Origin: Chitinophagia bacterium
GTDB taxonomy: Bacteria; Bacteroidota; Bacteroidia; Chitinophagales; Chitinophagaceae
Length of the DNA stretch: 5,789 nt
Reading direction: 5' to 3'
NCBI GenBank assembly: GCA_010027295.1
Contig: RGVM01000192.1
Span: 1 to 5,789, forward strand
The notes below the pieces were generated by a model, which was not told where the DNA came from, searched no databases, and worked only from the letters and a program-made list of their open reading frames with translations. A program made the translations under genes and the position numbers. Each line of letters starts with the position of its first letter. Positions within the stretch are counted from its first letter, which is position 1. Of the stretch, positions 1 to 5,789 are shown piece after piece.

Positions 1-678
1 GACCCGCAGCGCACCATCCGCATCGGATTCGGCTCGGCCATCCTAACGCTGGTCCTGCTCTGCCTGACCACCTTCGTCGGCGCGACGGGCGTGGCAGGTT
101 GGGAGGCCATCGTCTTCAAGCCCGACGGAAGTGCGTCGGACTCGCCTCTCCCCATGGCGCTGGGATGGGTGGTCGGCGCCTCGAACCCACTCTACCACCT
201 CCTCGTCACCGTCGGCATCTTCGGACTGGTGGCCTCCTTCCACGGACTCATCCTGGCCGCCGGACGCTCGACCTACGAGTTCGGGCGTGCCGGCTTCGGA
301 CCTCGCTTCCTCGGCCGGGTCCACCCACGCTTCCGCACCCCGCACAACGCCCTCCTTGTAAACATGGGCATCGGGATCGCCGCGCTCCTGACGGGCCGTA
401 CCGCCGAGATCATCACCCTCTCCGTCCTGGGCGCCCTCACCCTCTACGTCATCGCCATGGTGAGCCTGCTCCGGCTGCGGCGGCGCGAACCGGAGCTCGA
501 ACGGCCCTACCGGGCGCCCCTGGTGCCGGCCGCCCCGCTGACCGCACTGCTGATCGCCGCCGCGTCGCTGGCGGCGGTATGCGTATCCGCCCCCGGACCC
601 GCAACGGCCTATCTCCTCATCATGGCCCTCTCCTACGCAGCCTTCCTCCTCTTCCGCGGGAAAAAAGCGGATATTTGA
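1..678 (+). CDS. Ethanolamine-type amino acid/amine permease (APC superfamily), C-terminal part
   Basis: The frame is open from base 1 to a TGA at 676-678, giving the last 225 residues of a protein that starts before the window. APC permeases are usually about 440-480 residues with 12 helices. Here about six hydrophobic segments are visible, roughly at residues 6-32, 61-88, 118-135, 136-157, 178-196 and 200-217, which fits the second half of an inner-membrane carrier. Family marks include GLVASFHG near residues 75-82 followed by the GRSTYEFGRAGFGPRFLG loop, and the cytoplasmic RRREPELERPYRAP stretch before the last two helices. The SFHG motif, the GRxGxxPxFL loop and the EPxLxRPYRAP end resemble ethanolamine permeases more than generic amino acid permeases; this is from memory of the family. 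The downstream genes can process a gamma-glutamylated amino alcohol, so ethanolamine or a similar amine is the inferred substrate. It is the first visible gene of the likely operon and ends 20 nt before the ligase start. Confidence 0.85.
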   Translation, partial: DPQRTIRIGFGSAILTLVLLCLTTFVGATGVAGWEAIVFKPDGSASDSPLPMALGWVVGASNPLYHLLVTVGIFGLVASFHGLILAAGRSTYEFGRAGFGPRFLGRVHPRFRTPHNALLVNMGIGIAALLTGRTAEIITLSVLGALTLYVIAMVSLLRLRRREPELERPYRAPLVPAAPLTALLIAAASLAAVCVSAPGPATAYLLIMALSYAAFLLFRGKKADI

Positions 679-698
679 ACCCGGCAAAAAACATCCCG

Positions 699-2074
699 AT
701 GGCGAAAGAGGACAGCGGCTTCCATGACGCGCTGCAGCGGGCCTGGCAGCACAACCCCCGGAAGGTGAAGGTCGCATTCACCGACATCGACGGCATCCTT
801 CGCGGGAAGTACATCTCCTTCGACAAGTTCCGCTCCATCACCGAGAAGGGAAGCTCCTTCTGCGATGTCATCTTCGGATGGGACGCCTCCGACGCGCTCT
901 ACGACCGATCGACGTACACCGGCTGGCATACGGGCTTCCCCGACAGCCCGGCACGCCTCGACCCCGCCACCCTCCGCACCATCCCCTGGGAAGAGGGATT
1001 GCCCTTCCTCCTAGGAGAGCTCACGACGCCCGACGGCGGGCCCTCACCGGTCTGTCCGCGACAGCTGTTGAAAGGCATCCGCGACCGGGCACGGCAGGCG
1101 GGGTTCGAACCGGTCTTCGCCCAGGAGTTCGAATGGTTCAACTTCGAGGAGACGCCTGCCTCCGCCCAGGCCAAGAACTACCAGGGTCTCACCCCGCTCA
1201 CTCCGGGGATGTTCGGATATTCCATCCTCCGCAGCTCGCTGAAGAACGCCTTCATGAGCGACCTCTTCGACCAGCTCACGGCTTTCGGCATCCCTATCGA
1301 GGGACTGCATACCGAGACCGGTCCCGGCACCTATGAAGCCGCCATCGCCCATGCCGACGTCCTCGAGGCGGCAGACAGGGCCGTGCTCTTCAAGACCGGC
1401 GTCAAGGAGATTGCCTACCGCCACGGCATCATGGCCACCTTCATGGCAAAGGTCCATGAGACCCTTCCCGGATGCGGCGGACATGTGCACCAGAGTCTGT
1501 GGGACACCGGGGCAAAGAACAATCTCTTCCACGACCCCGAAGACACACTGAAACTCAGTCCCCTGGCCCGGCACTATATCGCAGGGCAACTCCACTGCCT
1601 GCCCCATATCCTGCCCATGTACGCCCCCACCCTCAACAGCTACAAGCGGCTGGTGGAGGGCGCCTGGGCCCCGACGACCCTCACCTGGGGCATCGACAAC
1701 CGCACCGTCGCCCTCCGGGTGCTCAATGGGGGCTCCGCTTCCTGCCGCGTGGAGACGCGGGTCGTCGGCGCCGACGCTAACCCCTCCCCTACCTCGCCAT
1801 GGCGGCCGCCCTGGCATCGGGACTCTATGGCATCCGCCACCAACTGGAGCTGCAACCCCGCGTAGAAGGCAACGGCTACCGCGTCTTCGACCACGGCACC
1901 CTGCCCCATACCCTCATCGAGGCCACGACACGCATGCGCGACTCGGCTGTCGCCCGCGAACTGCTGGGCGACGCCTTCACCGACCACTTCACCATGACCC
2001 GCGAATGGGAATGGCGGCAGCACCTCAGGGCGGTCACCGACTGGGAATACCGCAGATACTTCGAGATCATCTGA
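699..2074 (+). pseudogene. Glutamine synthetase-family gamma-glutamyl-amine ligase (GlnA4/PuuA-like), frameshifted
   Basis: Expected reaction: ATP-dependent joining of glutamate to an amine, here probably ethanolamine, in the cytoplasm. ATG at 699 is chosen because the protein becomes GS-like from there; the open frame further upstream lies under the permease. The leader is A-rich (GCAAAAAACATCCCG) with no Shine-Dalgarno. Visible parts: beta-grasp DIDGILRGK (residues 29-37), metal ligands E143/E145 in EFEWF, E206 and E213 in ETGPGTYE, H262 in GGHVHQSLWD, NSYKRL at 313-318, and E352/R354 leading into GADANP. After P362 the frame runs into unrelated sequence and stops at 1865. The rest of the GS continues perfectly in the -1 frame from Tyr at 1790 (YLAMAAALASGLYGIRHQLEL) to TGA 2072-2074. 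Removing one CCCCT copy gives a 456-residue enzyme, normal for the family. W323 occupies the place of the GlnA flap Glu327, which argues against ammonium as substrate. Type and function are likely; whether the gene is really broken or the frameshift is a sequence error is open. Confidence 0.88.
1781..1790 (+). repeat. Perfect 5-bp tandem duplication (CCCCT)2 causing a frameshift
   Basis: The bases read AA-CCCCT-CCCCT-ACCTC. With a single CCCCT the codons are AAC CCC TAC CTC, giving the expected Asn-Pro-Tyr-Leu of the GS signature. The second copy adds five bases and moves the rest of the gene out of frame. Both flanks are undamaged and the downstream frame stays open and conserved to its natural stop, so the event is recent or is a sequencing or assembly error. 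Confidence 0.85.
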
Positions 2075-2109
2075 CCCCGGAGACCTCCCGACTGTCCACA
2101 GACGACACC

Positions 2110-3246
2110 ATGATCCTGCAATACAACTTCCCTACCACCGTCCGCTTCGGCGCCGGCGCCAGCGAGGAGCTGGCCGACTATCTGCTGACACAGGGACTGC
2201 GGCGTCCCCTGCTGGCGACGGACCCGACCGTAGCCGCGCTGCCCTTCTTCCGGAAGATGCTCGCGAGCCTCGATGCGAAGGGCATCGGCCATACGGTCTT
2301 CCACGACATCCACCGGAACCCTGTGAAATCAGACGTGTACCGGGGCACAGAGGCCTTCGACGATGGGCGTTGCGATGCGGTCGTCGGCATCGGCGGCGGG
2401 GCCGCCATGGATGTCGCCCGGGCCATCGTCCTGCGTGTCAACCACCGCGAGGACCTCTTCGTGTACGACGACCTCATCGGAGGCGATGTGCATGTGACGA
2501 ACGACGTCCCCCACTTCGTGACGATCCCCACCACCGCCGGCACAGGCAGCGAGGTGGGCCGCAGCGCGATCATCGCCGACGACGAGACGCACCAGAAGAA
2601 GATCCTCTTCTCCCCGAAACTGCTCGCCCGCATCGTGTTCGCCGACCCCCTGCTCACGATGGACCTGCCACCGGCCGTCACCGCCGCCACGGGCATGGAC
2701 GCCTTCACCCACAATATCGAAGCCTATCTGGCCAAGATGTCGCACCCGATGTGCGAGGGCATTGCGCTCGAAGGACTCGCACGGATCGGGGCATCCATCG
2801 AGAAAGCCGTCCATGCGCCCGACCTGGCATCGCGCAGCCAGATGCTCATCGCCTCACTCATGGGCGCGGTGGCCTTCCAGAAAGGGCTGGGCGTCGTACA
2901 CTCGCTGGCACACCCGCTCTCCTCGCTGCTCGACACGCACCATGGTCTCGCCAACGCCGTCAATCTGCCCTATGGCATGCGCTTCAACATCGAAGGCTGC
3001 GAGGAGAAGTTCCGACAGATCGCCCGTAGGCTCGACCTGGAAAGGGAGGACGGCGAGGGAGTGGTGCAATACCTCTTCGAACTCAACCAGCGCATCGGCA
3101 TCCCGTCGAGGCTCCACGACATCGGCGTCCGGGAACATCACCTCGACACGCTGGCCGACCTTGCGGCGGCCGACTTCGCCCATCCCAACAACCCGAAACC
3201 CGTCCACCGCAACGACTTCCGACGCCTCTACGCGGAAGCCCTCTGA
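2110..3246 (+). CDS. Iron-containing alcohol dehydrogenase (group III ADH)
   Basis: A complete 378-residue NAD(P)-dependent alcohol dehydrogenase, close to the usual 380-390 for the family. ATG at 2110 is the only sensible start: it opens with the typical MILQYNFPTTVRFGAGA beta-strand, and the next in-frame Met upstream lies inside the ligase gene. The nucleotide-binding loop is GIGGGAAMD (GGG at 95-97, D101), with Ala where many members have Ser. IPTTAGTGSEV near residues 140-150 is the conserved second nucleotide/substrate loop. The metal ligands are all present by alignment to lactaldehyde reductase FucO: D197 and H201 in GMDAFTH, H264 in HSLAHP and H278 in HHGLANA. It starts 35 nt after the ligase stop and ends 21 nt before the fusion gene. 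In this context the inferred job is oxidation of gamma-glutamylethanolamide to the aldehyde, the position taken by the oxidase PuuB in the putrescine pathway. Family assignment is very secure; the substrate is inferred from neighbours only. Confidence 0.93.
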   Translation: MILQYNFPTTVRFGAGASEELADYLLTQGLRRPLLATDPTVAALPFFRKMLASLDAKGIGHTVFHDIHRNPVKSDVYRGTEAFDDGRCDAVVGIGGGAAMDVARAIVLRVNHREDLFVYDDLIGGDVHVTNDVPHFVTIPTTAGTGSEVGRSAIIADDETHQKKILFSPKLLARIVFADPLLTMDLPPAVTAATGMDAFTHNIEAYLAKMSHPMCEGIALEGLARIGASIEKAVHAPDLASRSQMLIASLMGAVAFQKGLGVVHSLAHPLSSLLDTHHGLANAVNLPYGMRFNIEGCEEKFRQIARRLDLEREDGEGVVQYLFELNQRIGIPSRLHDIGVREHHLDTLADLAAADFAHPNNPKPVHRNDFRRLYAEAL

Positions 3247-3267
3247 GACCCTCCCGGCCATATCGAG

Positions 3268-5352
3268 ATGAAGAAACGGATCGGCATCACCCTGACGAGG
3301 ACCAACCATCCCAACTACCCCGCCTGGTTTGACAGTCGGGAAGTGGGCGACGACATCGAGACAATTGAGCTCTCATTTCTCCATCCCGACCTTCGGGCCC
3401 TCCATGGATGCGACGGCATCGTACTGACCGGAGGCGTCGACATGGAGCCCTCACGCTATGGCGGCCCTGCGACCTACCCGAACATGCCTGCGACCTTCGA
3501 GCCCGAACGTGACAATTTCGAAGCTCTTGTCTACGTATATGCCAAGTCTCGTGGTATTCCGGTACTGGCCATCTGCCGAGGCATGCAGCTCGTCAACGTC
3601 CTGGAGGGCGGCGGCCTGGTGCCCGACCTCGGCCCGGGAGGCAACGCCGTCCACCGCAAGGCGTCCGACACCGACAAGCGCCATCCGGTCGAGATCGTGC
3701 CGGGCACCATCCTGCATGAGGCCTGCGGCGTTACGCGGGGCGAGACGAACAGCGCCCACCACCAGGCCGTCGAGAAGGCCCGCCTGGGCCGCGGACTCCG
3801 CGTTTCGGCCTGGGCCGATGACGGGACGCCCGAGGCGCTGGAAGCCGAAAACCCCTTCGAGAGGCCCTTCCTGCTCTGCGTGCAATGGCATCCCGAGCGG
3901 ATGGAAGACAGGATGGGCAACCCCCTCTCCCACCGCATCAGACAACGATTCCTGGACGCCGTCAGGCACCAAAGCCCAAGCCGCATGGACATTGTGAACC
4001 CCGCCACGGAAGAAGTCATCACGTCCGTCGCGTCGGACACCCCGGAAAGTCTCGCACGCAAGGCCGCCCTGCTGCGCCAGGCACAGTCGGGCTGGGCGTC
4101 TCGCAGCCTGGACGAACGGATGGACGCCATCGCCCGCTTCCAGACCCTGCTGGCGGAGGAGAGGGAGACCCTCGCAGCCGACCTGACGGCGGAAGTGGGA
4201 AAACCCCTGCAGCAGTCCCGCAACGAGATCGAAGGAGCCAGGACACGCATCGGCTGGATGCTGGAGAACGCGCGGAGATATCTTTCCGACGAGGTGATGT
4301 CTGTCACTGATGCCATGGAGGAGCGCATCCGCTACGAGCCCCTGGGCGTAGTCTGCAACATCTCGGCCTGGAACTACCCGTACCTGGTGGGGGTGAACGT
4401 ATTCGTCCCCGCCCTGCTGGCGGGCAATGCCGTCATCTACAAGCCATCCGAGCATGCCACGCTGACGGGTCTGCATATCGACCGCCTGCTCAAGGCCTCC
4501 GGTATCCCCGATGAGGTCTTCCAGACGGCTGTCGGGGTGGGAGATATTGGGGAGGCGCTGCTGCACCTGCCCTTCGACGGCTGGTTCTTCACTGGCTCGT
4601 ACCGGACGGGCAGGCATGTGTACGAGACTGTATCCGCCCGCATGGCCGTCTGCCAATGCGAGCTCGGCGGCAAGGACCCGCTGTATGTGGCGGACGACAT
4701 TGCCGACATCACAGCCGTCGCCGCCGCCACCGCCGACGGTGCCTTCTACAACAACGGCCAGAGCTGCTGTGCGGTGGAACGGATCTACGTCCACGAGAAG
4801 GTATATGATGCCTATGTCGAGGCCTTCGTCACGGAAGTACGCTCCTGGCGAATGGGCGACCCGCGGGAGGACGGCGTCTATCTGGGCCCACTCGCGCGGA
4901 AGGCCAACCTTTCCCTCCTCGAAGAACAGGTTTCCGATGCCCTCGCGAAGGGCGGACGGCTGCTGACGGGCGGCAAGCGGGTGCCGGGAAAGGGATACTA
5001 TTTCGAGCCGACGGTCATCGCTGAGGCCGACGCATCGATGCGGCTCATGCGCGAGGAATCCTTCGGTCCTGTCATCGGCATCCAGAAAGTGACGGGTGAC
5101 GACGAGGCGGTCCGCCTCATGCAAGACACCGACTACGGCCTCACCGCCTCCGTCTACACATCCGACAGGTCCCGCGGCGAACGCATCCTGGCACAGCTGG
5201 ACACGGGCACCGGTTATATCAACTGCTGCGACCGCGTCAGTGCCGCACTGCCCTGGTCCGGGCGCCGCCACTCGGGCTTCGGTGCCACGCTCTCCCATCA
5301 GGGCCTACGGGCCTTCACCCGCACCAAGGGCATGCACGTCCGGAAGGGATGA
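3268..5352 (+). CDS. Fusion: PuuD-like gamma-glutamyl amide hydrolase + NAD(P)-dependent aldehyde dehydrogenase
   Basis: One uninterrupted frame of 694 residues. Residues 1 to about 234 are a class I glutamine amidotransferase of the gamma-Glu-GABA hydrolase type: LTGGVDMEPSRYG (53-65), nucleophile C103 in ICRGMQLVN, NSAHHQ (161-166), and H208/E210 in QWHPE completing the triad. E. coli PuuD is about 254 residues. Residues 240-694 form a whole aldehyde dehydrogenase of 455 residues: it begins MDIVNPATEE, has N369 in SAWNYP, cofactor residues K392/E395 in YKPSE, FTGSYRTG (441-448), E465 in ELGGKDP, nucleophile C500 in GQSCCA and E597 in EESFGP. Both active sites look complete. No signal peptide is seen, so it is cytoplasmic. 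Inferred roles are aldehyde to gamma-glutamylglycine (ALDH) and its hydrolysis to glutamate plus glycine (amidotransferase). The joint is only a few residues long, so the fusion may be young. Domain calls are secure; the joined product and the substrate are less so. Confidence 0.92.
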   Translation: MKKRIGITLTRTNHPNYPAWFDSREVGDDIETIELSFLHPDLRALHGCDGIVLTGGVDMEPSRYGGPATYPNMPATFEPERDNFEALVYVYAKSRGIPVLAICRGMQLVNVLEGGGLVPDLGPGGNAVHRKASDTDKRHPVEIVPGTILHEACGVTRGETNSAHHQAVEKARLGRGLRVSAWADDGTPEALEAENPFERPFLLCVQWHPERMEDRMGNPLSHRIRQRFLDAVRHQSPSRMDIVNPATEEVITSVASDTPESLARKAALLRQAQSGWASRSLDERMDAIARFQTLLAEERETLAADLTAEVGKPLQQSRNEIEGARTRIGWMLENARRYLSDEVMSVTDAMEERIRYEPLGVVCNISAWNYPYLVGVNVFVPALLAGNAVIYKPSEHATLTGLHIDRLLKASGIPDEVFQTAVGVGDIGEALLHLPFDGWFFTGSYRTGRHVYETVSARMAVCQCELGGKDPLYVADDIADITAVAAATADGAFYNNGQSCCAVERIYVHEKVYDAYVEAFVTEVRSWRMGDPREDGVYLGPLARKANLSLLEEQVSDALAKGGRLLTGGKRVPGKGYYFEPTVIAEADASMRLMREESFGPVIGIQKVTGDDEAVRLMQDTDYGLTASVYTSDRSRGERILAQLDTGTGYINCCDRVSAALPWSGRRHSGFGATLSHQGLRAFTRTKGMHVRKG
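3970..3987 (+). other. Domain junction and possible internal start of the aldehyde dehydrogenase
   Basis: Codons CAA AGC CCA AGC CGC ATG link the hydrolase end (FLDAVRH, residues 228-234) to the dehydrogenase start. The ATG at 3985 (M240) is where a free-standing ALDH would normally begin. The CAA at 3970 differs from a TAA stop by one base, so one transition could have removed the hydrolase stop, or a sequencing error could hide it. Internal initiation at 3985 is possible but not shown by the sequence. Confidence 0.45.
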
Positions 5353-5475: not shown

Positions 5476-5789
5476 TTACTTTGCATTCGATCGATCGGAT
5501 TGTAGCGTCTCCAAGGTCACCGGGCCGATCAGTCCGGACGGATGCAGCTTTTCCGTCGGCACGATATCGTCATGGATCCAGTACAGCGTGCGCTTGTCCA
5601 TCGGCAGCCGCTTCTCGCGCATCATTCGGTTCCTCCACTGGTTCGACACCTCCACCTCGAGCGTGTTGACGCCGGGCTTTAGGAAGGGGTCGATACGAAG
5701 GACATGGGGCGGCATCCAGGTCATCCCCGCCGTCTGGCCGTTGACACGCACCGAGGCCATGACAGCCACTTCGCCGAGGTTCAGATAGA
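5476..5789 (-). CDS. Glycoside hydrolase (family 2-type / alpha-L-rhamnosidase-like), C-terminal part
   Basis: The frame enters at the right edge and runs leftward to TAA at 5478-5476, giving about 104 C-terminal residues. The first visible residues are YLNLGEVAVMASVRVNGQ; the Val/Met codons there are internal rather than a start. The order LGEV-xx-ASVRVNG, then TWMPPHVLRID, then LKPGVNTLEVEVSNQWRNRM, then a late HPSGLIGPVTLE, is the C-terminal jelly-roll pattern of large family-2-type and rhamnosidase-like glycosidases frequent in Bacteroidota polysaccharide loci. Usual equivalents are the LGxVxxxAxVxxNG, PPxxxDIT, GxNxLEVxVTNxWxNR and SGLLGPV elements. The catalytic domain is outside the window, so neither the exact family nor the substrate can be given. 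It converges on the amine operon and has no evident functional link to it. Confidence 0.75.
   Translation of the reverse strand, partial: YLNLGEVAVMASVRVNGQTAGMTWMPPHVLRIDPFLKPGVNTLEVEVSNQWRNRMMREKRLPMDKRTLYWIHDDIVPTEKLHPSGLIGPVTLETLQSDRSNAK

Follow-up and report, generated by a model that had tools for sequence, protein, structure and literature searches.

What does a short operon that combines an ethanolamine-type permease, a glutamine synthetase (GS)-family ligase, two dehydrogenases and a hydrolase do in a member of the Bacteroidota? The operon in question lies on contig RGVM01000192.1 from a Chitinophagia bacterium. The window analysed here is this entire contig of 5,789 nt, one of the 923 contigs that make up a 3.57 Mb genome with a completeness of 92.8%. 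The operon encodes a transporter of the ethanolamine-permease family, a GS-family ligase whose gene carries a frameshift in this copy, an iron-type alcohol dehydrogenase (Fe-ADH) and a fusion of a PuuD-like hydrolase with an aldehyde dehydrogenase (ALDH). It probably serves to convert ethanolamine, a phospholipid head group, to glycine via gamma-glutamylated intermediates. Such a gamma-glutamyl pathway is already known; what sets the Bacteroidota version apart is a TIGR00908-type permease, a ligase of separate lineage, a PuuD-type hydrolase and a recurrent fusion, and no description of this version was found in the open-licence literature.

In the proposed route the permease would take up ethanolamine, and the ligase would use ATP to join it to glutamate, giving gamma-glutamylethanolamide. 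The Fe-ADH would then oxidize the alcohol group of this compound to gamma-glutamylacetaldehyde, which the ALDH half of the fused protein would convert to gamma-glutamylglycine, and the tethered PuuD half would cleave the latter to glycine and glutamate. The glutamate would be regained, and the glycine could enter the glycine cleavage system; a match to the glycine decarboxylase P-protein is present in the same genome. Judged by family, candidates for the alcohol dehydrogenase, the aldehyde dehydrogenase and the gamma-glutamylglycine hydrolase are all found in one cluster. The same chemistry had been put forward in the original prediction, and it is supported as a prediction. Every enzymatic step is predicted from sequence, and ethanolamine is suggested as the substrate by the model that the permease matches, by the presence of an Fe-ADH, and by the gene neighbourhoods with their parallel in proteobacterial clusters.

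The operon consists of four genes on the forward strand, the C-terminal half of the permease, the ligase, the Fe-ADH and the fused gene, separated by gaps of 20, 35, and 21 nt, respectively. Pfam and NCBIfam models match the permease half, the GS-family ligase, the Fe-ADH, the Peptidase_C26/PuuD domain and the ALDH domain. Five collinear genes with gaps of 20-35 nt had originally been described, and this description is right as to content, strand and gaps. However, the hydrolase and the ALDH are not two genes but a single open frame of 694 amino acids (3268-5352), with the Peptidase_C26/PuuD domain first, a fusion that had gone unnoticed, and the ligase is not one open frame. A scan of the window for promoters and terminators gave results no better than those from shuffled sequences.

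The first line of evidence for ethanolamine is the permease. The best model for the half present in the window is TIGR00908, the ethanolamine permease, with 172.2 bits compared to 73.8 for the next model, a score obtained by half a protein against a curated cut-off of 381.75. The whole permease of G007 (locus L050), the nearest whole relative at hand, reaches 397.4 bits and thus exceeds this cut-off. All 39 whole permeases (425-465 amino acids) found in loci L050-L129 match TIGR00908 with E <= 1e-20, the comparison with the cut-off being that of G007, and the best E-value among them is 2.1e-134 vs 1.9e-51 for the next model. The naming of the transporter as an ethanolamine-type permease is supported.

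The ligase was aligned with E. coli GlnA, the residue numbering of which is used here. At the positions of E327 and Y179, presumably parts of the ammonium site, all 48 whole Bacteroidota ligases carry tryptophan and phenylalanine. The residues taken to be catalytic (E129, E131, E212, E220, H269, H271, R321, R339, R344, E357, and R359) are kept in 48 of 48, and 39 of 48 also retain D50, which we take to be a further part of the ammonium site. This pattern is that expected of an amine ligase rather than of a glutamine synthetase, and it agrees, as far as sequence can tell, with the earlier expectation that the ligase would not be of the ammonium type. The predicted structure of the ligase is poor (mean predicted local distance difference test score, pLDDT, of 66) and was used solely for retrieving PDB titles. 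The solved chains nearest to the G007 ligase are 11zs, from Brucella, followed by 5dm3, the title of which names Csal_0679 of Chromohalobacter salexigens. The likeness to Csal_0678/Csal_0679 lies in the GS-family ligase (5dm3), and the locus number of Csal_0679 adjoins that of an ethanolamine-binding protein. The G007 ligase differs from Csal_0679 in that it matches 5dm3 with E 3.2e-72, compared to 3e-180 for the ligase of Paracoccus denitrificans.

The Fe-ADH has D197, H201, H264 or H268, and H278 as likely metal ligands, roles that we assume from the family. In a tree of such enzymes those from Bacteroidota, alphaproteobacteria, Legionella, Photobacterium, and Shinella are split from E. coli FucO and EutG with a support of 100/98. 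The original prediction took the Fe-ADH as a pointer to an amino alcohol. It is not a peculiarity of this operon, as alphaproteobacterial clusters carry an Fe-ADH too, two of them with the layout described for Phaeobacter, and the enzyme is part of the known route. On a plasmid of Shinella sumterensis (L163) a PotABCD-type ABC transporter, which may serve a larger amine, is encoded between a GS-like ligase and a related Fe-ADH.

In Phaeobacter sp. MED193 the ethanolamine operon is reported to contain RpiR, GGAH, EtoVWX, ETAGA, GAADDH, and GETADH (PMC10132767). According to the proteomic data of the same report, Phaeobacter growing on phosphorylethanolamine raises GGAH, EtoX, ETAGA, GAADDH, and GETADH, all encoded in one operon, and its genes are called close kin of genes with a demonstrated function in C. 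salexigens and Agrobacterium (PMC10132767). The clusters of P. denitrificans and of the Rhodobacteraceae SC52 plasmid, with RpiR, N-formylglutamate amidohydrolase, TRAP transporter, ligase, ALDH, and Fe-ADH, display this layout. An amino acid permease replaces the TRAP transporter in S. meliloti, the row in P. albus contains no amidohydrolase, and that in Aminobacter sp. NyZ550 no transporter. The last of these clusters, found on pMET3 (L175), adjoins bhcABCD of the beta-hydroxyaspartate cycle, which is consistent with glycine or glyoxylate as product. When the window is compared with P. denitrificans, P. albus, SC52, and S. meliloti the identities are 38-40% for the ALDH and 38-39% for the Fe-ADH. 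The window thus resembles Phaeobacter, Paracoccus, and SC52 in that a ligase, an ALDH and an alcohol dehydrogenase (an Fe-ADH in Paracoccus and SC52) are clustered and the predicted steps are identical, a likeness to Phaeobacter that is based on its published layout and on the Paracoccus and SC52 sequences. It differs from these in having an APC permease and a PuuD-type hydrolase fused to the ALDH, while they have a TRAP transporter and a hydrolase of the N-formylglutamate-amidohydrolase type. Outside the alphaproteobacteria, a plasmid of Legionella lytica encodes a ligase, an ALDH, an Fe-ADH and a 238-residue protein annotated as GMP synthase in a row, and in Photobacterium DA100 the genes for the ligase, the ALDH and the Fe-ADH follow one another.

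The glnA4 cluster of Streptomyces coelicolor is similar in its published description, with a GS-like ligase, an ALDH, a putative ethanolamine transporter and the same gamma-glutamyl steps proposed, of which the ligase step alone is reported as shown (PMC6529630). It differs from the window in having separate genes and a short-chain dehydrogenase in place of the Fe-ADH, and its orf5 is a 'glutamine amidotransferase' in the figure legend but is placed in the formylglutamate amidohydrolase family in the discussion (PMC6529630). The view that the route itself is little described is not supported: the steps are in print for S. coelicolor (PMC6529630) and, as proteomics, for Phaeobacter (PMC10132767), while no publication on the operon in Bacteroidota was found in the open-licence literature.

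The Puu pathway of E. coli also shares the gamma-glutamyl protection, the ALDH and the class-I glutamine amidotransferase (GATase)-type hydrolase, and the operon could accordingly be asked to serve a polyamine of the putrescine type. The logic of ligase, ALDH, and PuuD is the same, and identity is 32% both between the G007 ligase and E. coli PuuA and between the PuuD part of the window and E. coli PuuD. However, E. coli uses an FAD oxidase where the window has an Fe-ADH, its proteins are not fused, and identity is at a level of ~32%. Neither an FAD oxidase (PuuB) nor an aminotransferase (PuuE) is encoded among the genes of the window, the part of the genome searched for them, an Fe-ADH would have no evident role on a primary amine, and the G007 ligase scores 215.6 bits with the gamma-glutamylputrescine synthetase model NF045547, the cut-off of which is 650. 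A putrescine route is therefore highly improbable.

A number of observations weigh against the ethanolamine route. In a tree of 31 ligases, taking in 16 of the 48 whole Bacteroidota sequences and with GlnA, PuuA, and the Shinella ligase as long branches, five alphaproteobacterial ligases form one clade (100/100) nearer IpuC. The Bacteroidota ligases form a clade of their own, which is joined (91/91) with those of Legionella, Photobacterium, Burkholderia, Rhizobium, M382, and Shinella, apart from the alphaproteobacterial ones. In this they differ from the ligase of the alphaproteobacterial EtoX-type operon. Because the Bacteroidota ligases group apart from the alphaproteobacterial enzymes of the Csal_0679 and Paracoccus type, the substrate is not readable from orthology, and ligase orthology was rejected as proof of ethanolamine. 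The Fe-ADH falls below every NCBIfam cut-off, its best model being 4-hydroxybutyrate dehydrogenase, and a long-branched Fe-ADH from Pseudosulfitobacter, with no ligase within the ~9 kb shown on each side, joins the same unresolved group. A BLAST comparison of the PuuD of the window with the hydrolase-like genes found in the clusters of Legionella and Burkholderia gives no match. Among 12 Bacteroidota genomes, a strong PuuD-type match is found in seven (G000, G002, G007, G020, G042, G043, and G056), and in G043 and G056 it is on a different contig from the ALDH. In the other five, where the operon or its visible part has no PuuD (L027 of G001, L045 of G008, L043 of G016, L026 of G026, and L049 of G027), there are only weak class-I GATase matches and no PF05013 enzyme as candidates for the last-step hydrolase; PF05013, the N-formylglutamate-amidohydrolase type, was found in 0 of the 12 genomes. 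Finally, the ligase is broken in the window itself, and the route may not run in this genome unless the break is an assembly error.

The position of the ligase also bears on whether the same chemistry might act on some other small amino alcohol (1-amino-2-propanol, N-methylethanolamine, or 3-aminopropanol) or on a mixture; the product would then be a beta-amino or N-methylamino acid. As far as annotations tell, no ligase of tested substrate groups with the Bacteroidota clade. The G007 ligase shares 40% identity and the Trp at the E327 position with IpuC of Paenarthrobacter, a GS-like ligase that is amine-using according to its annotation as gamma-glutamylisopropylamide synthetase. The neighbours of IpuC, a P450 and a short-chain dehydrogenase, are unlike those in the window. 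For an N-methyl substrate there are the neighbouring genes to consider. A divergently transcribed SolA/N-methyltryptophan-oxidase-like gene, the product of which might act on sarcosine or glycine, lies beside the permease in L043 (G016) and L027 (G001), the copy in L043 scoring 367.6 bits with NF008425 (cut-off 257). In Mesorhizobium sp. 131-2-5 (L176) an N-formylglutamate amidohydrolase, an ALDH and an Fe-ADH are found beside sarcosine oxidase genes, with no ligase in the stretch shown. On the other hand, the sarcosine-oxidase-like neighbour is seen in two Bacteroidota loci only, and for the permease the ethanolamine model outscores the next one by a wide margin. Another amino alcohol is thus considered quite unlikely, and ethanolamine is retained as the probable substrate.

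The distribution of the operon was analysed starting from the fused protein. A relative of it is encoded by 562 genome-contig stretches, of which the best 80 were kept. The relatives in named genomes are from Bacteroidota to the extent that titles indicate it, two being titled only 'uncultured bacterium'. In 93 loci, many of them cut by contig ends, the ALDH, alone or fused, is present in 91, the Fe-ADH in 81, the ligase in 65, a separate PuuD in 62 and the permease in 52, while any other gene family recurs in at most 11. The commonest order is permease-ligase-FeADH-PuuD-ALDH, and it recurs in several Bacteroidota families; in Emticicia the parts are scattered. The co-occurrence in related genomes that had been suggested as a check is thus observed. 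The whole cluster is found in records of Pedobacter, Aquirufa, and Flavisolibacter, which include cultured members. The operon is nevertheless scattered within the phylum and not universal, since an Fe-ADH orthologue (E <= 1e-100) was found in six of 296 evenly drawn Bacteroidota genomes, the genome of the window included.

The fusion of the last two enzymes recurs as well. Residues C103, H208, and E210, presumably the PuuD triad, and E465 and C500, which we take to be catalytic in the ALDH, are invariant in 20 of 20 aligned fused proteins. The 108 loci L022-L129 yielded 95 distinct ALDH stretches after removal of 13 that were identical, partial, or absent; 22 of these are fused to PuuD, 55 adjoin a separate PuuD, and 18 are apart from or without one. 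On a quick LG+G4 tree of the ALDHs the fused state changes eight times, or six if only well-supported branches are trusted, compared to a mean of 19.9 for shuffled labels, with the caveat that some fused genes may appear split owing to frame errors in metagenome assemblies. The window and G007 have the fusion, while their nearest kin in the ALDH tree (G003, G005, and G019) encode the two parts separately. When 8,000 relatives of the fused protein were scored, a ranking that favours fused sequences, 119 of the best 120 have both domains and one is an ALDH alone. The AlphaFold2 model of the protein is mostly confident, with a pLDDT of 85 and a predicted template modelling score of 0.84, residues 654-677 being poor.

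Searches of solved structures with the fused protein gave ALDH matches in all of the best 50-60 rows, which is no evidence against the existence of a fused structure. Among 3,421 plasmid records with a match, 10 span 80% or more of the fused query, and the nine best each do so in two pieces with no fusion seen; viral contigs gave two distant PuuD-like pieces only. A methionine at the former ALDH start, in the linker near residue 240, is found in 21 of 22 fused rows, that of the window lying just past the printed stretch. It was rejected as a sign of an internal ALDH start, as neighbouring residues are often kept too and no special cause is needed; an internal start yielding free ALDH is possible but not needed. 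No paper on a PuuD-ALDH fusion was found in the open-licence literature. It may tentatively be proposed, at a little less than an even chance, that the Bacteroidota recruited a ligase of separate lineage to act on ethanolamine and joined the last two enzymes into one chain more than once, so that a two-headed protein would have one site for making gamma-glutamylglycine and another for cleaving it, the tethered pair recycling the glutamate carrier. The fused protein would then be a ready test object for such tethered recycling.

The predicted route was also claimed to need neither the EutBC lyase nor a microcompartment. EutB was found in none of 25 related genomes (E. coli as positive control), a set defined by a close ALDH or PuuD match. 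This set leaves out G011 and G014, which have nothing but contig-end pieces, and it includes G043 and G056, in which the ALDH stands apart from the other operon genes. Shell proteins of bacterial microcompartments were likewise not found in the window's own genome, using two positive controls and given its completeness. Among the 296 evenly drawn genomes six have the Fe-ADH orthologue and eight have EutB, with none shared. This lack of overlap is uninformative because only ~0.2 shared genomes are expected by chance, and avoidance of EutB was rejected as evidence. If the route is correct, Bacteroidota of several families, cultured ones included, could use ethanolamine without EutBC and a microcompartment, a role concealed by the current annotation of the proteins, for instance as 'glutamine synthetase' or 'aldehyde dehydrogenase family protein'.

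The break in the ligase, hinted at in the original prediction by its call for an intact orthologous ligase, was confirmed as a frame change within the gene. The match to PF00120 runs in one frame to ~1784 and resumes in another at ~1787-1799 (profile position 249/253; see table). The genome, which is 92.8% complete, yielded no second gene for such a ligase, the one further GS-family match being a piece at a contig start. Of 60 loci that contain all or nearly all of the ligase gene, 57 have it in one frame and three were flagged. In one of these three, L124, an entire ligase of 448 residues is encoded on the opposite strand, which brings the intact ligases to 58 and leaves two broken ones, those of the window and G026. 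In G026 (L026, 5185-6482) the ligase is likewise in two pieces, with a break site that differs from that in the window. The lack of a second ligase and the similar state of G026 would suit an operon that is a decaying relic, with a real frame break and the remaining genes being lost. Compared with L050, the ratio of nonsynonymous to synonymous substitution rates (dN/dS) is 0.09 before and 0.11 after the break, 0.09 for the Fe-ADH and 0.07 for the ALDH, while it is 0.18 for the permease part and 0.17 for the PuuD part, although such pairwise rates are blind to recent loss. Since dN/dS is low on both sides, the break is either a recent loss or an assembly slip. No further stop or shift is found in the operon genes, and a base-calling or assembly slip is plausible in an assembly of 923 contigs. 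Decay of the whole operon is considered rather unlikely.

Table 1. Positions of the operon features in the window
Feature	Position	Strand	Basis or remark
APC-type permease, C-terminal 225 residues	1..678	+	Best model TIGR00908 ethanolamine permease; truncated at contig end
GS-family gamma-glutamyl ligase, first part, ATG at 699	699..1785	+	PF00120 profile 2-249
Frame break in ligase gene, C/T-rich stretch	1779..1798	+	Frame change of GS profile match
Ligase, last 91 residues, other frame	1799..2074	+	PF00120 profile 253-344
Fe-ADH, 378 aa, predicted gamma-glutamylethanolamide dehydrogenase	2110..3246	+	Pfam/NCBIfam family match
PuuD-like (Peptidase_C26) domain of fused protein, predicted gamma-glutamylglycine hydrolase	3268..3963	+	Profile match, triad C103/H208/E210
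Linker and ALDH domain of fused frame, predicted gamma-glutamylacetaldehyde dehydrogenase	3964..5352	+	Profile match, C500, E465

Downstream of the operon, and convergent with it, the end of a gene for a glycosylhydrolase-like jelly-roll protein is found on the reverse strand at 5476-5787 (NF045579, 61.7 bits, cut-off 50).

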